Shown: positions 9,473 through 64,000 of the stretch, piece after piece | How the letters are laid out: every line of letters starts with the position of its first letter | Position numbering within the stretch: position 1 is the first letter of the stretch | The notes under the pieces: model-generated | Told to the model about the DNA's origin: nothing | Databases searched by the model: none | Seen by the model: the letters and a program-made list of their open reading frames with translations, nothing else | Translations under genes and position numbers: made by a program | Source: Methanolobus profundi | Lineage (GTDB): Archaea; Halobacteriota; Methanosarcinia; Methanosarcinales; Methanosarcinaceae | DNA length: 64,000 bases | Assembly (NCBI RefSeq): GCF_900114835.1 | Contig: NZ_FOUJ01000001.1 | Location: forward strand, 806,001 to 870,000 | Direction: 5' to 3'

Positions 9473-10387
9473 ATGAATAACTCATATCAAGAAGAACAAT
9501 TTCCAGTTCTTCCTATTGAAGAATGGGAAGATACAATGAACACGTTTCATCTGTTCCTGCAAGTGATAGGGAAGATCAGACTTAAGCTGTTCCCTAAAAG
9601 AAATCACTGGTGGCATGTGACCTTATACATATCAACAAGAGGGATCACAACAGGCCCTATTCCATATGAGGATATGAGCTTTGAGATGGAATTCGATCTC
9701 ATTGAGCATGTGCTGATCATCAGAACAAGCACAGATCAGAATAGGAACATCGAACTAAAGGGACTCTCTGTCTCTCAGTTCTATAAAAAAGTGTTCTCAG
9801 AGCTTTCAGATATCGGTATAAGTACTAAGATAGTAGCGGTTCCTTATGACACGCCGTTTAGCACAGAACCATTTGAAACCGATGATAAGCATTCTTCATA
9901 TAATGAAAAGTATGTCAACAGATACTGGCGTATTCTTGTTCAGATGAACTCGATCTTTGAGACCTACAGAGGTACATTCACAGGAAAATGTTCACCATCG
10001 CAATTTTTCTGGCACCATAAAGACCTGTCATTGATATTCTACTCAGGAAGATCTGTAGAACTATGGGAAGGTGCCAATCCGGTGGATACTGAAGCCTATT
10101 CACATGAATTGATAGCCTTTGGATTCTGGCCAGGTGATGAGAACGTCAGAGAACCTGCATTTTACGCTTCCGTATATCCCGAACCAGAAGGACTTACCGA
10201 TGAACCGCTGAGCCCTGAGAAAGCATTCTGGTCCCCTGACGGAGGTGGAATGGCCCTATTGATGTATAATGATGCCAGAAGCACTCCTGATCCAAAACAA
10301 GCAATAGTGGAATTCATGGAAAGTGTCTATCAGGCCGGTGCTAAAAAGGCGAACTGGGATAAAAAAGCTTTCCAGCTTCCGGTGTAA
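9473..10387 (+). CDS. DUF5996 family protein
   Basis: A 304-residue soluble protein of the DUF5996 type: the opening LPIEEWEDTMNTFHLFLQV, the HWWHVTLYISTRGITTGPIP strand region, and late motifs FWPGDE and ASVYPEPEG. Family function is unknown to me. It has no signal peptide or membrane segment. The ATG follows GGGAGG by about six bases. It stands alone and converges on the PAS kinase gene, with a palindromic hairpin between them. Confidence 0.8.
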   Translation: MNNSYQEEQFPVLPIEEWEDTMNTFHLFLQVIGKIRLKLFPKRNHWWHVTLYISTRGITTGPIPYEDMSFEMEFDLIEHVLIIRTSTDQNRNIELKGLSVSQFYKKVFSELSDIGISTKIVAVPYDTPFSTEPFETDDKHSSYNEKYVNRYWRILVQMNSIFETYRGTFTGKCSPSQFFWHHKDLSLIFYSGRSVELWEGANPVDTEAYSHELIAFGFWPGDENVREPAFYASVYPEPEGLTDEPLSPEKAFWSPDGGGMALLMYNDARSTPDPKQAIVEFMESVYQAGAKKANWDKKAFQLPV

Positions 10388-24470: not shown

Positions 24471-26858
24471 TCATATACTTCCCGCAGATGCCATCTTTTT
24501 ATCGATGTAGCTTACTGCCGGCCTGTGCAGGTCGATGTCAAGTGCTTCCTTGAGCACCTCTTCTATGGTCTCTACAGGTACGAATTTGAGCTCGTTCCTT
24601 ACATCCTCAGGTACATCTTCAAGATCTCTCTCATTCTCTTTTGGAAGGATGACCTTCTTTATACCTGCTCTGTGAGCCGCCAGGACCTTTTCTTTGATAC
24701 CACCTACGGGCAGTACAGCACCACTAAGTGTGATCTCACCTGTCATGGCAAGCTTCGGATCCACTGCCTTCCCGGTGATAAGGGAAGTGATCGCAGTGAA
24801 GAGTGTCACACCTGCTGATGGTCCGTCCTTTGGTGTAGCACCGGATGGCACATGGATATGGATATCACTAGCAGTGAAATCAAAGGCTGTTGCAGTGCCT
24901 GCAAGCCGTGACCGTGCCAGACTCATAGAGATATGTGCTGATTCCTTCATTACATCACCAAGCTGACCTGTGAGTGTAAGCTTTCCTTTTCCGGGCATGA
25001 ATGTCCCTTCTATGAAAAGGATGTCACCACCAACAGGTGTCCATGCAAGTCCTGTGACCACGCCGGGTACATTTTCCTTTCTTGCATCATCCTGACGGAC
25101 CAGTTCTTTTCCAAGGACCTCTTTGAGCATATCTGCCTTGATGACGTATGGAAGCTCAGCATTTCCAGATACGATCTTCTCGGAGACGAACCTTGCAGCC
25201 CTTGCAAGTTGTTTCTTCAGTCCACGGACACCAGCCTCACGGGTGTATCTCTCGATCATCAGTTTCAGGGCATCATCCTCTATTCTCAGCTTTTCAGCGT
25301 CAAGACCATGGTCCTCCAGTATAAGAGGGATCAGGTGGTCTTTTGCGATATCAAGTTTCTCATTCTTGGTATAGCCGGATATCTCGATGATCTCCATCCT
25401 GTCACGCAGTGGTCCCGGGATGTTCGCCAGTGAGTTAGCAGTAGCTATGAAGAGCACCTCGGAAAGGTCATATGGCACTTCAAGATAGTGGTCAGAGAAC
25501 GTATTGTTCTGTTCCGGGTCAAGTACTTCAAGAAGGGCACTTGCAGGATCACCTGAATGGGATGATGAAAGCTTGTCGATCTCATCAAGGATGAACACAG
25601 GATTCTTTGTCCCTGCCTTCCTGATACCCTGTACGATCCTTCCCGGCATTGCGCCGATATAGGTCTTTCTGTGTCCTCTTATCTCGGCCTCGTCCCTGAC
25701 ACCACCAAGGCTCACGCGTACATATTCCCTACCAAGGGCATCTGCAATGCTTTTACCAAGACTTGTCTTTCCGGTTCCTGGCGGACCTGTGAAGAGAATG
25801 ATCGAACCCTGCTTTTCATGCTTCAGTTTCATTACGGCAAGATGCTGTATGATCCTCTCCTTGACCTTTTCAAGACCATTGTGATTACTTTCAAGCACAT
25901 TACGGGCCTGCTCGATGTCAATGCTCTTTCTTTCTGTGACATCCCATGGGAGGTCCAGCAGGAGGTCCAGATAGTTCCTGATCACATTGCTCTCTGGATT
26001 GTGGTCCCCTCCGGTCTCAAGCTTCCTGAGCTCGGAAAATGCCTTCTTCTTAACATCTTCGGGCATGCCGGAACGTTCGATCCTGTCCTTGTAATTAGCT
26101 TCACCTGACTCAGGGTCATCGAACTCATGAAGTTCTTCCTGGATAACCTTGAGCTGTTCACGCAGCATTGCTTCTCTGTGTGTTCTGTTTACCTTTTCAG
26201 CAACCTTTTTAGCTACCTCTATCTGGATATTGATATTCTCCTTCTGGTTGGTCAGGACATAGAGGAATGTAAGATAACGTTCGCGCACTGAGACCGTTTC
26301 AAGCAGGTCCTGCTTGTCCTTTACCTCGATCGGCATAAAAGGCATCACATAGCCCATGATCTGGTCTACGGAATCCATTTTGTCAATTGGTTTGGTAAAT
26401 GTCTCTGAGCTCTTGAAGCGTTCACTAATCTCGTAGATCATCTTTTTGATATCCTTCAGGATAACTTCCCGAAGTCCCTCATCAAGGTCATCTACATCCT
26501 GGACATGTTCGTATGTCGTATAGAACATCCCGTCCTTCTTGTAAATAGAAGTTGACCTTACTCTCTTCACAGACCTTGCAAACACAACATAACCTTCATC
26601 TGCAGGCAGTATTGATATTATTTCCAGAAGGTTACCTGTCTTGTAGAGTGTCTCTTCGGAGAGGTCCGATAGTTGGGTCCCGTCTTTCATGGTGAGCCCG
26701 ACCGCATACGCGGTGCCTTCTTCTTCCATCATTGAAAGAAGGACCTGCCCTGTCTTTTTGTCAGCCAGGAATTTTGTCTTGCTCTCAGGGTATATCACTA
26801 TCTCAGAAAGTCTGATAACTATACTTTCTGTTCCGTTTTCTGTTGCTTGTGGGTACAT
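24471..26858 (-). CDS. lon: ATP-dependent protease La (LonA type)
   Basis: A 795-residue Lon protease of the soluble bacterial LonA type: N-terminal substrate-binding domain (about 15-210), coiled region, AAA+ module with Walker A GPPGTGKT at 358-365 and VRDEAEIRGHRKTYIGAMPG, then the protease domain with the Ser681-Lys722 dyad (GPSAG and GGIKEK). The archaeal norm is the membrane LonB; no membrane insert is seen, so this gene probably derives from bacteria. It degrades misfolded and short-lived regulatory proteins. Its promoter carries a 21-bp element shared with the upstream MarR gene and overlapping the expected transcription start. Confidence 0.96.
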   Translation of the reverse strand: MYPQATENGTESIVIRLSEIVIYPESKTKFLADKKTGQVLLSMMEEEGTAYAVGLTMKDGTQLSDLSEETLYKTGNLLEIISILPADEGYVVFARSVKRVRSTSIYKKDGMFYTTYEHVQDVDDLDEGLREVILKDIKKMIYEISERFKSSETFTKPIDKMDSVDQIMGYVMPFMPIEVKDKQDLLETVSVRERYLTFLYVLTNQKENINIQIEVAKKVAEKVNRTHREAMLREQLKVIQEELHEFDDPESGEANYKDRIERSGMPEDVKKKAFSELRKLETGGDHNPESNVIRNYLDLLLDLPWDVTERKSIDIEQARNVLESNHNGLEKVKERIIQHLAVMKLKHEKQGSIILFTGPPGTGKTSLGKSIADALGREYVRVSLGGVRDEAEIRGHRKTYIGAMPGRIVQGIRKAGTKNPVFILDEIDKLSSSHSGDPASALLEVLDPEQNNTFSDHYLEVPYDLSEVLFIATANSLANIPGPLRDRMEIIEISGYTKNEKLDIAKDHLIPLILEDHGLDAEKLRIEDDALKLMIERYTREAGVRGLKKQLARAARFVSEKIVSGNAELPYVIKADMLKEVLGKELVRQDDARKENVPGVVTGLAWTPVGGDILFIEGTFMPGKGKLTLTGQLGDVMKESAHISMSLARSRLAGTATAFDFTASDIHIHVPSGATPKDGPSAGVTLFTAITSLITGKAVDPKLAMTGEITLSGAVLPVGGIKEKVLAAHRAGIKKVILPKENERDLEDVPEDVRNELKFVPVETIEEVLKEALDIDLHRPAVSYIDKKMASAGSI

Positions 26859-42096: not shown

Positions 42097-42210
42097 AACT
42101 TTGATCTCTTATGCCATCGATTATTGAGTGGCTGTATTTGTTTTGCGACAACTGTCTAAAACGAGAATATCATTATCATCATTCTCATTATATACTAAAG
42201 AATACATATA

Positions 42211-42218
42211 TTTATATA
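42211..42218 (+). promoter_or_regulatory. TATA box of the 42.2-kb small RNA
   Basis: TTTATATA centred near 42214, about 26 nt before the first stem base at 42240. Confidence 0.55.
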
Positions 42219-42239
42219 CTTGAAAAATATACTAGTGCT

Positions 42240-42405
42240 TGTAGTCACACAGTCTGGAGATACAGGCTGACTACACGACCAATGATCGGTGGTACGATCT
42301 GACCTTGATTGAAAATAACTGAAGCTAAAAACGCATAAAAACTGGAACGTTAACAAACCTACTCCAAATTACTCCCACACAACACACACAAGGTTTGTTG
42401 CGTTC
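42240..42405 (+). ncRNA. Candidate two-hairpin small RNA with G-free loop
   Basis: Hairpin 1: TGTAGTCA (42240-42247) / TGACTACA (42268-42275), loop 20 nt. Hairpin 2: GAACG-tt-AACAAACCT (42345-42360) / AGGTTTGTT-g-CGTTC (42391-42405), 14 paired bases, with a 30-nt loop (42361-42390) that has no G and contains ACTCCC and ACACAACACACACA. No reading frame of worth is present. A TATA box sits at the right distance. The design matches the hairpins at 16.6 and 62-64 kb. Confidence 0.6.
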
Positions 42406-42454
42406 AGGCTTTAGTCATCACAATTATCTAAATATAAGATGGAGTATGAGCGAC

Positions 42455-42511
42455 AGGGGAAATATGTTCCTTCAAGGAACAGGGTTATTGTCAATTTCTT
42501 TAATTTCCCCT
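42455..42511 (+). ncRNA. Nested hairpin, possible second small RNA
   Basis: Outer stem AGGGGAAAT (42455-42463) / ATTTCCCCT (42503-42511), inner stem GTTCC/GGAAC (42466-42480). TAAATATA near 42429-42436 lies about 23 nt upstream. It could also be the 3' end of the preceding candidate RNA. Confidence 0.45.
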
Positions 42512-42580
42512 CTACTTTTCATATAACAGAATTATCATCTTTTCTCTGGATATCTCACAACTATCAGGCATGTAGAGCGA

Positions 42581-61680: not shown

Positions 61681-62130
61681 ATGGATATCAGGTACGATAT
61701 TGAAAATAATGTGATGCAGATAGATGATGTTGATATACATCCCCATAGCCTGGATACTAATTTCATAGGTGTCTGCAACAATTGTAATTCAGATGTAAGT
61801 AGCATAAGCTATCACACCTATGAAGAAGGGATGGTAGTTGCTGGAAAATGCAGTCTTTGCGACACCATAGTTGCGATAATGTATGATAATGAATGGAACT
61901 GGCAGGGAGAAGAAACCATTTCTCAGTTCTTTGATATCAAAAGCAGCAATAACCTGAAAAACCTTAATTCGATCGACCGAAAGAAACTTGCTACGGTTTT
62001 TACTCCTGCTGAGACCGATGCTATGTATGCAAAGGCCAGAGGCGAAAAATACGTTCGCCAATACCTATACAGGGCACGTAAGAAATATGCAGATTTTGAA
62101 GAGCTGTTCGGGATCCACATAAATATATGA
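61681..62130 (+). CDS. Zinc-ribbon-like protein, unknown
   Basis: A 149-residue soluble protein with two CxxC pairs (CNNC at about 32-35 and CSLC at about 57-60) that should bind zinc, and a basic helical C-terminus (KYVRQYLYRARKKYADFEELFG). No family recognised; nucleic-acid binding is plausible. GGTGA lies five bases before the ATG. It is the last protein gene before the hairpin-rich non-coding region. Confidence 0.65.
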   Translation: MDIRYDIENNVMQIDDVDIHPHSLDTNFIGVCNNCNSDVSSISYHTYEEGMVVAGKCSLCDTIVAIMYDNEWNWQGEETISQFFDIKSSNNLKNLNSIDRKKLATVFTPAETDAMYAKARGEKYVRQYLYRARKKYADFEELFGIHINI

Positions 62131-62629
62131 TCGGATCATGCTCAAGTATATGCATACTAAAGCTATGAGAGTTAGGAATACGTGCGAAAATAATATAGAC
62201 AGTATTACTTTGAGTATTAGTGCATAGAGTGAGCATCTGCACAGTTTGTTAAAAACATAGAAGTAGTATTTAAATAACGATGTTTTTATAATATATTTTT
62301 TGATTTGAATATGCTAGGGTATTCAAATACAAAATATGCAAATAATACTTGCATAATTTGTTTTACAATAACGTATAATTAATAAACTATTACATAAGTT
62401 TATTGTATAAGTCGTAGTGTTTGACGATCTTTCCACATATTATGTGCAACTGTGCATATTATATCAATATCCTGGTAACTACCAAATGCTATTTACTGCA
62501 ATAGCCATATCATATATCGTATACCTGTACATATTAGCTACAGATAATGGTTTTGTAGGAAACAAGAACAACATATTTATATACTAACGTTTGCATCTTC
62601 AGATTTGAAGGGACATTACAATTCTAGCA
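62131..62629. other. Start of the long non-coding region
   Basis: No gene seen. Holds a perfect hairpin ATTTGAATA/TATTCAAAT (62303-62328) and a TATA-like TTTATATA at 62576-62583 that could start the first RNA unit near 62606. Confidence 0.5.
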
Positions 62630-62718
62630 TCCTGATAGGTGCAAGTACCACCACCCAAACATCAAACAATATCATATTTGTACCACCAACCCCCGTTCCT
62701 TCGTTTGCCCTATCAGGA
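62630..62718 (+). ncRNA. Hairpin unit 1: two TACCACC loop motifs
   Basis: Perfect 10-bp stem TCCTGATAGG (62630-62639) / CCTATCAGGA (62709-62718). The 69-nt loop carries TACCACC at 62646 and 62681, followed by ACCC and AACCCCC. Confidence 0.6.
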
Positions 62719-62740
62719 ACCCACATTTATTGATGAGTGA

Positions 62741-62892
62741 CAATGTTGCGTAACATTGTTTCCTGTTCTTCTATATATTTTAAGAACAGAATAAACTGTG
62801 TACAATTCGAAAAGAGGAATATCGGGGTTAGTACACAGGCGTCGAAGACAATAACATCGGCGTCTTCCTCCTTATAATACACCATCATAAGG
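62741..62892 (+). repeat. Cluster of five short perfect hairpins
   Basis: CAATGTT/AACATTG (62741-62758), CTGTTCTT/AAGAACAG (62763-62789), CTGTGTAC/GTACACAG (62796-62838), GAAGAC/GTCTTC (62844-62867), CCTTAT/ATAAGG (62870-62892). A CTTCCTCCTT pyrimidine run lies between the last two. Confidence 0.6.
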
Positions 62893-63078
62893 ATATTGAT
62901 ATCTTATGGAAAGCTTGCATAATTATCTTCTGCAGCTGAAAATAGTGGTTGAAAGAATTATATCATTAAATTAAGTTATATTATTGAATATAAAATAAGT
63001 ACTGAACTTATAAATAGAATAATATAAAAACTAAATGTAGAATATAGTGTGGGATAATATGCTATATCACATATTAGT

Positions 63079-63191
63079 TGCCTATAGGGTCCTTCAGGAT
63101 CCCTAACCTAACATGTACCCTTATAGGCAGCATTTTATACTTACGGCAGTGCTCGCTGCAACAATTCCTCCTTCTCTTAAAGTGTGTTGCA
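63079..63191 (+). ncRNA. Hairpin unit 2: ACCTAACATGT loop plus CCTCC loop
   Basis: Stem TGCCTATAGGGT / ACCC-t-TATAGGCA (63079-63090 with 63117-63129, one bulge) with ACCTAACATGT in the loop. It is followed by TGCAACA/TGTTGCA (63157-63163 with 63185-63191) whose loop holds TTCCTCCTTCTC, which includes the anti-SD core CCTCC. Confidence 0.55.
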
Positions 63192-63285
63192 CTACGGGCC
63201 TGTCCAAAAAGTAATTTATCATAAACAGTGTTAATTTTGAGAATCAAATAATATGGATATATATAATATAGAAATAATTAATAGT

Positions 63286-63362
63286 GTGTGTTACTACATA
63301 TATAATAGTAACACACCCTATCCAAACCCACACAAGAACACCAACCTAGCAGTGGTGTTCTT
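63286..63362 (+). ncRNA. Hairpin unit 3: two perfect hairpins behind a TATA box
   Basis: GTGTGTTACTA/TAGTAACACAC (63286-63296 with 63306-63316), then a C/A-rich linker (CCTATCCAAACCCACAC), then AAGAACACC/GGTGTTCTT (63334-63342 with 63354-63362) with loop AACCTAGCAGT. GGATATATATAATA (63255-63268) is centred 25 nt before the first stem. Confidence 0.6.
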
Positions 63363-63397
63363 CCTCACTGTTACTTTCTAGCATATAACGTATAAGA

Positions 63398-63411
63398 GTT
63401 GCGTAACATTG
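63398..63411 (+). repeat. Direct repeat copy GTTGCGTAACATTG
   Basis: Identical 14-mer to 62745-62758, and both are followed by (T/C)TTCCT(G/A)TT. Confidence 0.7.
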
Positions 63412-63519
63412 CTTCCTATTGTATTATATAGAATTGCTTCTCAGGCATTAGAGCTCAATGGGTAGTTTCACTTACATTTACAATATCATATTATCTTTGG
63501 TACTGCTGGAATAAAATGC

Positions 63520-63574
63520 CGGTGTTAAATTATATATAGGTTCAACAACAGTGTAAGGCTGCTTGTTAACACCG
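63520..63574 (+). ncRNA. Hairpin unit 4
   Basis: Perfect stem CGGTGTTAA (63520-63528) / TTAACACCG (63566-63574), 37-nt loop. The loop is less C-rich than the others. Confidence 0.5.
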
Positions 63575-63612
63575 TTAACTTGCACATAAAATTGGATAGA
63601 GATGGTACATAA

Positions 63613-63735
63613 AACCTGACAAGGCACCACACCAACCAACCTAACATGTTCCTTGTCAGGTTACTCTGATGGATGATCAAACTTTAATATATGAGTCCCT
63701 ATTACAATGGTAATACCACCAACCAGCTCATCAGA
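63613..63735 (+). ncRNA. Hairpin unit 5: CCAACCAACC and ACCTAACATGT loop
   Basis: Perfect 12-bp stem AACCTGACAAGG (63613-63624) / CCTTGTCAGGTT (63651-63662). The 26-nt loop has only one G and holds CCAACCAACC followed by TAACATG. A second hairpin, TCTGATG/CATCAGA (63665-63671 with 63729-63735), follows at once and carries TACCACCAACC (63714-63724) in its loop. Confidence 0.65.
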
Positions 63736-63847
63736 ATCCCGTTTTCACAACTATTCTGCTTTATCCTGCATCTTTATAGCTATCAGTGGCATAACTAACC
63801 AGGGAACAAAATAAAAGATAGGTAAATAGCAAATCCGATCTCTTATT

Positions 63848-63905
63848 TAATGTAAGTTACATTACTAACAATAGATAAGTAACTAAGTTTCATAGATCTG
63901 ATCTA
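63848..63905. repeat. Two perfect palindromes
   Basis: TAATGTAA-g-TTACATTA (63848-63864) and TAGATC-t-GATCTA (63893-63905). Confidence 0.6.
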
Positions 63906-63932
63906 GGAAGAAGTAGATAATACTATCTTATA

Positions 63933-63993
63933 CACCTCTGATCCGTACCACCCAGAGGTGCATAAATGGTGCCAGGTCGGCTTTAATAGGCAC
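63933..63993 (+). ncRNA. Hairpin unit 6: TACCACC loop
   Basis: Perfect stem CACCTCTG (63933-63940) / CAGAGGTG (63953-63960) around a 12-nt loop ending in TACCACC (63946-63952). A smaller GTGCC/GGCAC hairpin (63969-63993) follows. The unit may continue past the window edge. Confidence 0.55.
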
Positions 63994-64000
63994 TACATAC

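Follow-up and report, generated by a model that had tools for sequence, protein, structure and literature searches.

A structured non-coding RNA of Methanolobus profundi and its genus-wide family with a common promoter box and C-rich loops

In this work we describe a gene whose predicted product, about 280 bases long, is a structured non-coding RNA. The gene lies in a window of 64,000 nucleotides (the whole stretch of DNA that was analysed), and the RNA belongs to a Methanolobus-wide family of related RNAs. We lean towards the reading that it is a trans-acting sRNA of about 280 nt, with paralogs across Methanolobus and shared box promoters, which is probably induced by cold and which would pair with ribosome-binding sites through a C-rich loop. 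A sequence-only reading of the window had proposed that a structured RNA stands alone at this place, under a promoter of its own, and our results strongly support that part of it, since both of its stems are kept in orthologs. The features of the gene are as follows.

42170..42194, plus strand: family-wide upstream box TCATNATNATgATNcTcATTATATA (box and TATA pattern in the genus; consensus of 78 promoters)
42211..42218, plus strand: TATA box TTTATATA (sequence; part of the promoter consensus)
42238..42515, plus strand: predicted RNA (conservation and fold; known here from sequence)
42240..42275, plus strand: P1 stem-loop, 42240-42247 with 42268-42275, TGTAGTCA/TGACTACA (ortholog pairing, fold)
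42288..42298, plus strand: conserved motif GGTGGTACGAT (ortholog alignment; present in most subfamilies)
42318..42415, plus strand: P3 hairpin, outer stem 42318-42325/42408-42415, inner stem 42345-42359/42392-42405 (ortholog pairing, fold)
42360..42391, plus strand: G-free C-rich loop with ATTACTCCCACA, proposed target-pairing site (sequence, conservation)
42441..42451, plus strand: conserved motif GGAGTATGAGC
42466..42480, plus strand: P4 small hairpin GTTCC/GGAAC
42482..42492, plus strand: conserved motif GGGTTATTGTC, with a GGTT for which pairing with GACC near 42277 is predicted

Both ends of the RNA are estimates, the start from the TATA spacing and the end (about 42515) from conservation and a T-rich stretch. 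The TATA box and the first stem had been placed at 42211 and 42240 and are found there, as is the second stem of 14 pairs, which contains one bulge. The loop of this second stem indeed has no G, and its length is 32 nt instead of the 30 nt given before. The earlier description is extended here by the outer stem of P3, by GGTGGTACGAT, by the 3' module at 42441-42492 and by the upstream box at 42170-42194.

The predicted structure is supported by folding energies as well as by comparison. The hairpin 42345-42405 folds with -15.0 kcal/mol against -5.24 for its shuffles (z -5.06), and none of 200 shuffles equals it; against shuffles, z is -3.46 for the P1 hairpin and -2.98 for the whole RNA. The fold of 42236-42425 favours the plus strand (z -3.20), the minus strand reaching only -0.80. 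In an alignment of orthologs from 15 Methanolobus genomes, 98.6% of 505 cells are paired; shifting the 3' partners by 1-3 columns lowers this to 27-40%. None of 500 shuffles reaches the observed pairing, and five pairs are changed on both sides in a compensatory manner. Conservation of the stems between the FKBP and CPBP genes had been suggested as a check, and these genes are indeed the usual setting of the 15 aligned loci: FKBP is present in 13, CPBP lies downstream on the opposite strand in 12, and both flanks are found in 11. This count covers the fetched loci, one of which (G016) ends at a contig end, and at some loci FKBP is separated from the RNA by other genes. A second subfamily (14 sequences) is 95.9% paired with 15 of 30 pairs changed on both sides, and a third (10 sequences) is 97.7% paired, its number of further pair types being no higher than in shuffles. 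The long-range GACC/GGUU pairing is predicted in the subfamily of the window. A pseudoknot between the loop UACUCC and a downstream GGAGUA looked attractive in the window copy; we dropped it as a general rule because G016 and G012 retain the loop without GGAG.

Searching the 27 genomes of the genus by blastn with 42160-42440 gave matches in all of them. The matches are long (E 1e-25 or better) in 16 genomes, and in the rest they are shorter or weaker and mainly promoter-proximal. The region matched three places in its own genome and therefore has paralogs; the members we find there are C7:249515, C7:540745, C7:780343, C7:848170 (the gene described here), C8:34437 and C16:144405, with C7:292624 perhaps a further one. 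In Methanolobus halotolerans two near-identical copies of one member lie about 34 kb apart. The neighbourhoods bear on the question whether the RNA could be a cis-acting leader, that is, a riboswitch or attenuator of an adjacent gene. The window ortholog mostly retains its neighbours, as such a leader would; however, CPBP, which comes next, is encoded on the opposite strand, the same applies to the TPR gene beside another subfamily in all 11 of its loci, and the paralogs adjoin unrelated genes. We consider a leader function very improbable.

The members of the family also share a promoter. The pattern of upstream box plus TATA, with at most two mismatches, occurs at 98 places in 27 of 27 genus genomes and nowhere in the reversed control. 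From blastn and promoter matches we fetched 100 regions, a part of all places, and 98 of these regions carry the promoter within five mismatches, the other two being without it. On clustering, 80 of the 98 promoters fall in RNA subfamilies of at least three members, while the remaining 18 stand alone or in small groups and include several promoters of protein genes. The consensus aa.AtcTCAT.AT.ATgAT.cTcATTATATAtta.AgTaTAgATATATTTATATAgTag was derived from 78 promoters, namely those of the 80 that have at most three mismatches and are not truncated at an end. A few protein genes are also preceded by the upstream box (L027, L035, L081 and relatives); they encode a 98-aa coiled-coil-like protein, a 127-aa protein without a family and a DUF7507 protein. 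We also considered whether the box may be a Fur-like operator.

The sequence-only reading had taken the RNA for a dispersed relative of a hairpin cluster at 62-64 kb, because its layout resembles that of the unit at 63286-63362. Window positions 62130-64000 hold an AT-rich cluster of hairpins preceded by TATA, in which the unit 63284-63370 folds well (z -4.72). Both places have a TATA box followed by hairpins, and the cluster contains three copies of GTACCACC (at 62645, 62680 and 63945), which is complementary to the GGTGGTAC motif of the family. The likeness in layout, a TATA box and then two hairpins, is generic, however, and comes without meaningful shared sequence: blastn between the regions finds only TATA-like and other short matches, and the two have neither promoter box nor RNA motifs in common. 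Within the window the RNA gene is the only place with the promoter box, GGAGTATGAGC or GGGTTATTGTC, each in a single copy, and the cluster shows little conservation across the genus. Kinship with the cluster is for these reasons rejected, and we give it hardly any credence; the true relatives of the RNA are at other places in the genome.

Members of the family have in common P1 near the 5' end, GGUGGUACGAUAUG or a variant of it, and a hairpin with a C-rich, G-poor loop. Most subfamilies also carry the 3' module, in which GGAGUAUGAGC is followed by a small hairpin and GGGUUAUUGUC. A shorter subfamily, detected via this module, is without the GGUGG motif. Further variation was seen in individual subfamilies. 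GGTGGTACGATATG is found twice per RNA in the subfamily of L024, L052 and L056, and the 3' motif GGGTTATTGTC is tandemly repeated several times after the RNA in L100 and G010:C136. L260 and L262 form a candidate further subfamily, with GGAGTATGAGC...GGGTTATTGTC and then the complementary GATAACCCGCTCAT. Another subfamily (L026 and ten further loci) is always convergent to the gene of a TPR protein of about 820 aa (11/11).

The GGUGG motif raises the question whether these RNAs are instead mRNAs of small proteins, with GGUGG as Shine-Dalgarno sequence and AUG six bases on. GGTGGTACGATATG does resemble a good start site, and 50 of the 65 matches to the GGUGGUACGAU motif have an ATG after them (80 members were examined, of which 15 lack the motif in this exact form). 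The resulting frames nevertheless range from 1 to 93 codons and are not conserved, their ends differing even among orthologs. The copy in the window has CTG, and the indels in the alignment are not multiples of three. We rejected the small-protein reading, as the reading frames are only unconserved ones, and regard it as hardly likely.

The investigation of the taxonomic distribution shows that the family is restricted to the genus. With stricter filters applied, the 3'-module model is found in 27 of 27 Methanolobus genomes and in none of 84 genomes from 13 other genera of the family Methanosarcinaceae, and the exact pattern of the module in 25 of 27 and 0 of 84, respectively. When the 3' module was aligned across subfamilies, RNAalifold found no pairs common to them, and model R1 is therefore one of sequence only. 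Its alignment holds 34 rows of the 50 found, picked by a regular expression on the module's own motifs, so the invariance of these motifs in the 34 rows is partly by choice. A search over 84,980 species returned 65 stretches, of which 36 are Methanolobus or Methanosarcinaceae isolates by title and 29 belong to scattered taxa. We estimate that about 58 chance matches are expected in 257 Gb, so the 29 scattered stretches can be explained by chance; the upstream box is absent from all 29 and from one viral contig. A looser P1 pattern gave one site, which is at chance level. Rfam 15 at the gathering score matched only tRNAs in the window and has no family for the RNA. The permissive threshold (E up to 10) added only two chance-level matches in the window, and no Rfam family matched ten paralog loci. 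In the open-access literature we found no description of the family beyond Li et al. 2015.

The loop of P3 is the part of the RNA that we propose as the site of target pairing. Its core ATTACTCC is identical in all 15 orthologs, and the loop is G-free apart from its first base in 13 of 15 (in 3 of 15 when the first base is counted). Of 80 members, 79 have TCCC within their first 200 nt, where 41.4 would be expected from shuffles, although these counts are not independent because the members are related. In predicted folds the median unpaired probability of TCCC is 0.90, compared with 0.43 for whole RNAs; these folds thus hold what masking of a ribosome-binding site (RBS) calls for, an exposed C-rich loop complementary to the RBS. 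The search for targets gave little. In five genomes the shorter seed GGGAGTA stands before ATG about as often as its reversed control (278 and 277 times), which is no enrichment. TGTGGGAGTA stands shortly before an ATG in 3 of 5 genomes, and we estimate that three matches are about chance level. At two of these places the gene is DUF5996, the two being orthologs. This gene, present in 5 of 27 genomes, follows the best loop-complementary site and is a weak target candidate; its RBS is fully complementary to the loop core in three other genomes and has one mismatch in the own genome. The DUF5996 gene of the window lies at 9473-10378, with an RBS TGTGGGAGGAAT that is complementary to the RNA loop except for one base.

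This lack of target enrichment also suits a different reading, in which the RNA is a scaffold for proteins or ribosomes (similar to 6S RNA, or sponging a cold-shock RNA-binding protein) and the C-rich loop is a protein site and not an antisense seed. Across subfamilies GGUGGUACGAUAUG, GGAGUAUGAGC and GGGUUAUUGUC are conserved better than the loops, and some copies have G/U-rich inserts between the 3' motifs, both of which would agree with a scaffold. On the other hand, one subfamily of 14 copies does without the 3' module, and the G016 ortholog (L072) has lost it while P1, P3 and the loop are kept. The loops differ between subfamilies yet stay constant within that of the window, and this is as expected of seeds. 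We regard the scaffold reading as fairly unlikely.

In the trans-acting sRNA reading that we prefer, several paralogs per genome would be transcribed from near-identical promoters with a common upstream control box, and cold would probably induce their transcription. The RNAs would share a scaffold of P1, GGUGGUACGAUAUG and usually the 3' module, which probably binds a common partner, and a hairpin would present the C-rich UCCC loop. This loop may pair with G-rich ribosome-binding sites of target mRNAs, and the pairing would then block translation or alter mRNA stability. A wider picture, which we find possible rather than probable, is a genus-wide archaeal RNA regulon of modular RNAs of about 190-400 nt, with one scaffold and promoter switch and swapped C-rich seed loops, through which one cold-responsive regulator would reprogram the translation of many mRNAs. 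If true, this would be a sequence- and structure-defined multicopy family of trans-acting archaeal sRNAs with a scaffold module of its own, GGAGUAUGAGC-hairpin-GGGUUAUUGUC. To our knowledge, there are few archaeal sRNAs whose mode of action or family structure has been worked out. The family described here, which is absent from Rfam, was recognised from sequence alone and has paralogs, a common promoter box and loops that can be exchanged. The box offers a route to the regulator, the scaffold to a protein partner and the defined loops to targets.

The family probably connects to published and unexplained cold-induced sRNAs of a cold-adapted methanogen, and renders their function testable. The accessible part of Li et al. 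(2015, PMC5378194) describes 195 sRNAs in M. psychrophilus R15, among them nine conserved sRNAs that have a 'cold box' and are induced in the cold, at 8 C. Our genome G005 fits R15, as its position 26,651 lies within a PAS-histidine kinase-receiver gene, like the transcription start site that the same part of the paper places in Mpsy_0031 (PMC5378194). G005 has several conserved sRNAs of the family together with a common box upstream of TATA: members at 212335-212779(-), 594292-594743, 2065371-2065812 and 2696005(+), and probably 2721948(+). This makes about five to six members against the nine published (PMC5378194). The R15 sRNAs resemble our family in that they come from the same genus, are highly conserved and number several in the genome, and their promoters are preceded by a common motif; a common structure, subfamilies and a genus-wide distribution, given here, do not appear in the accessible part of that paper (PMC5378194). 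The cold-box sRNAs of R15 are probably members of this family, an identity that we infer from the features described for them.

Among other archaeal intergenic sRNAs, sRNA154 of Methanosarcina mazei masks an RBS with one loop, which resembles the loop here, and sRNA41 masks RBSs as well, according to the sections available of PMC5867862; for the M. mazei sRNAs those sections describe no multicopy family with a shared upstream box (PMC5867862). LhrC of Listeria monocytogenes is bacterial, whereas the RNAs here are archaeal and have a conserved scaffold, the sequence comparison with LhrC being that of the Rfam scan alone. The LhrC sRNAs are also smaller than the RNAs here. What LhrC shares with our family is to be multicopy and to carry UCCC in its loops: in the available part of its description it is multicopy, G-poor and stress-induced, and the UCCC of its loop pairs with Shine-Dalgarno sequences (PMC4132741).
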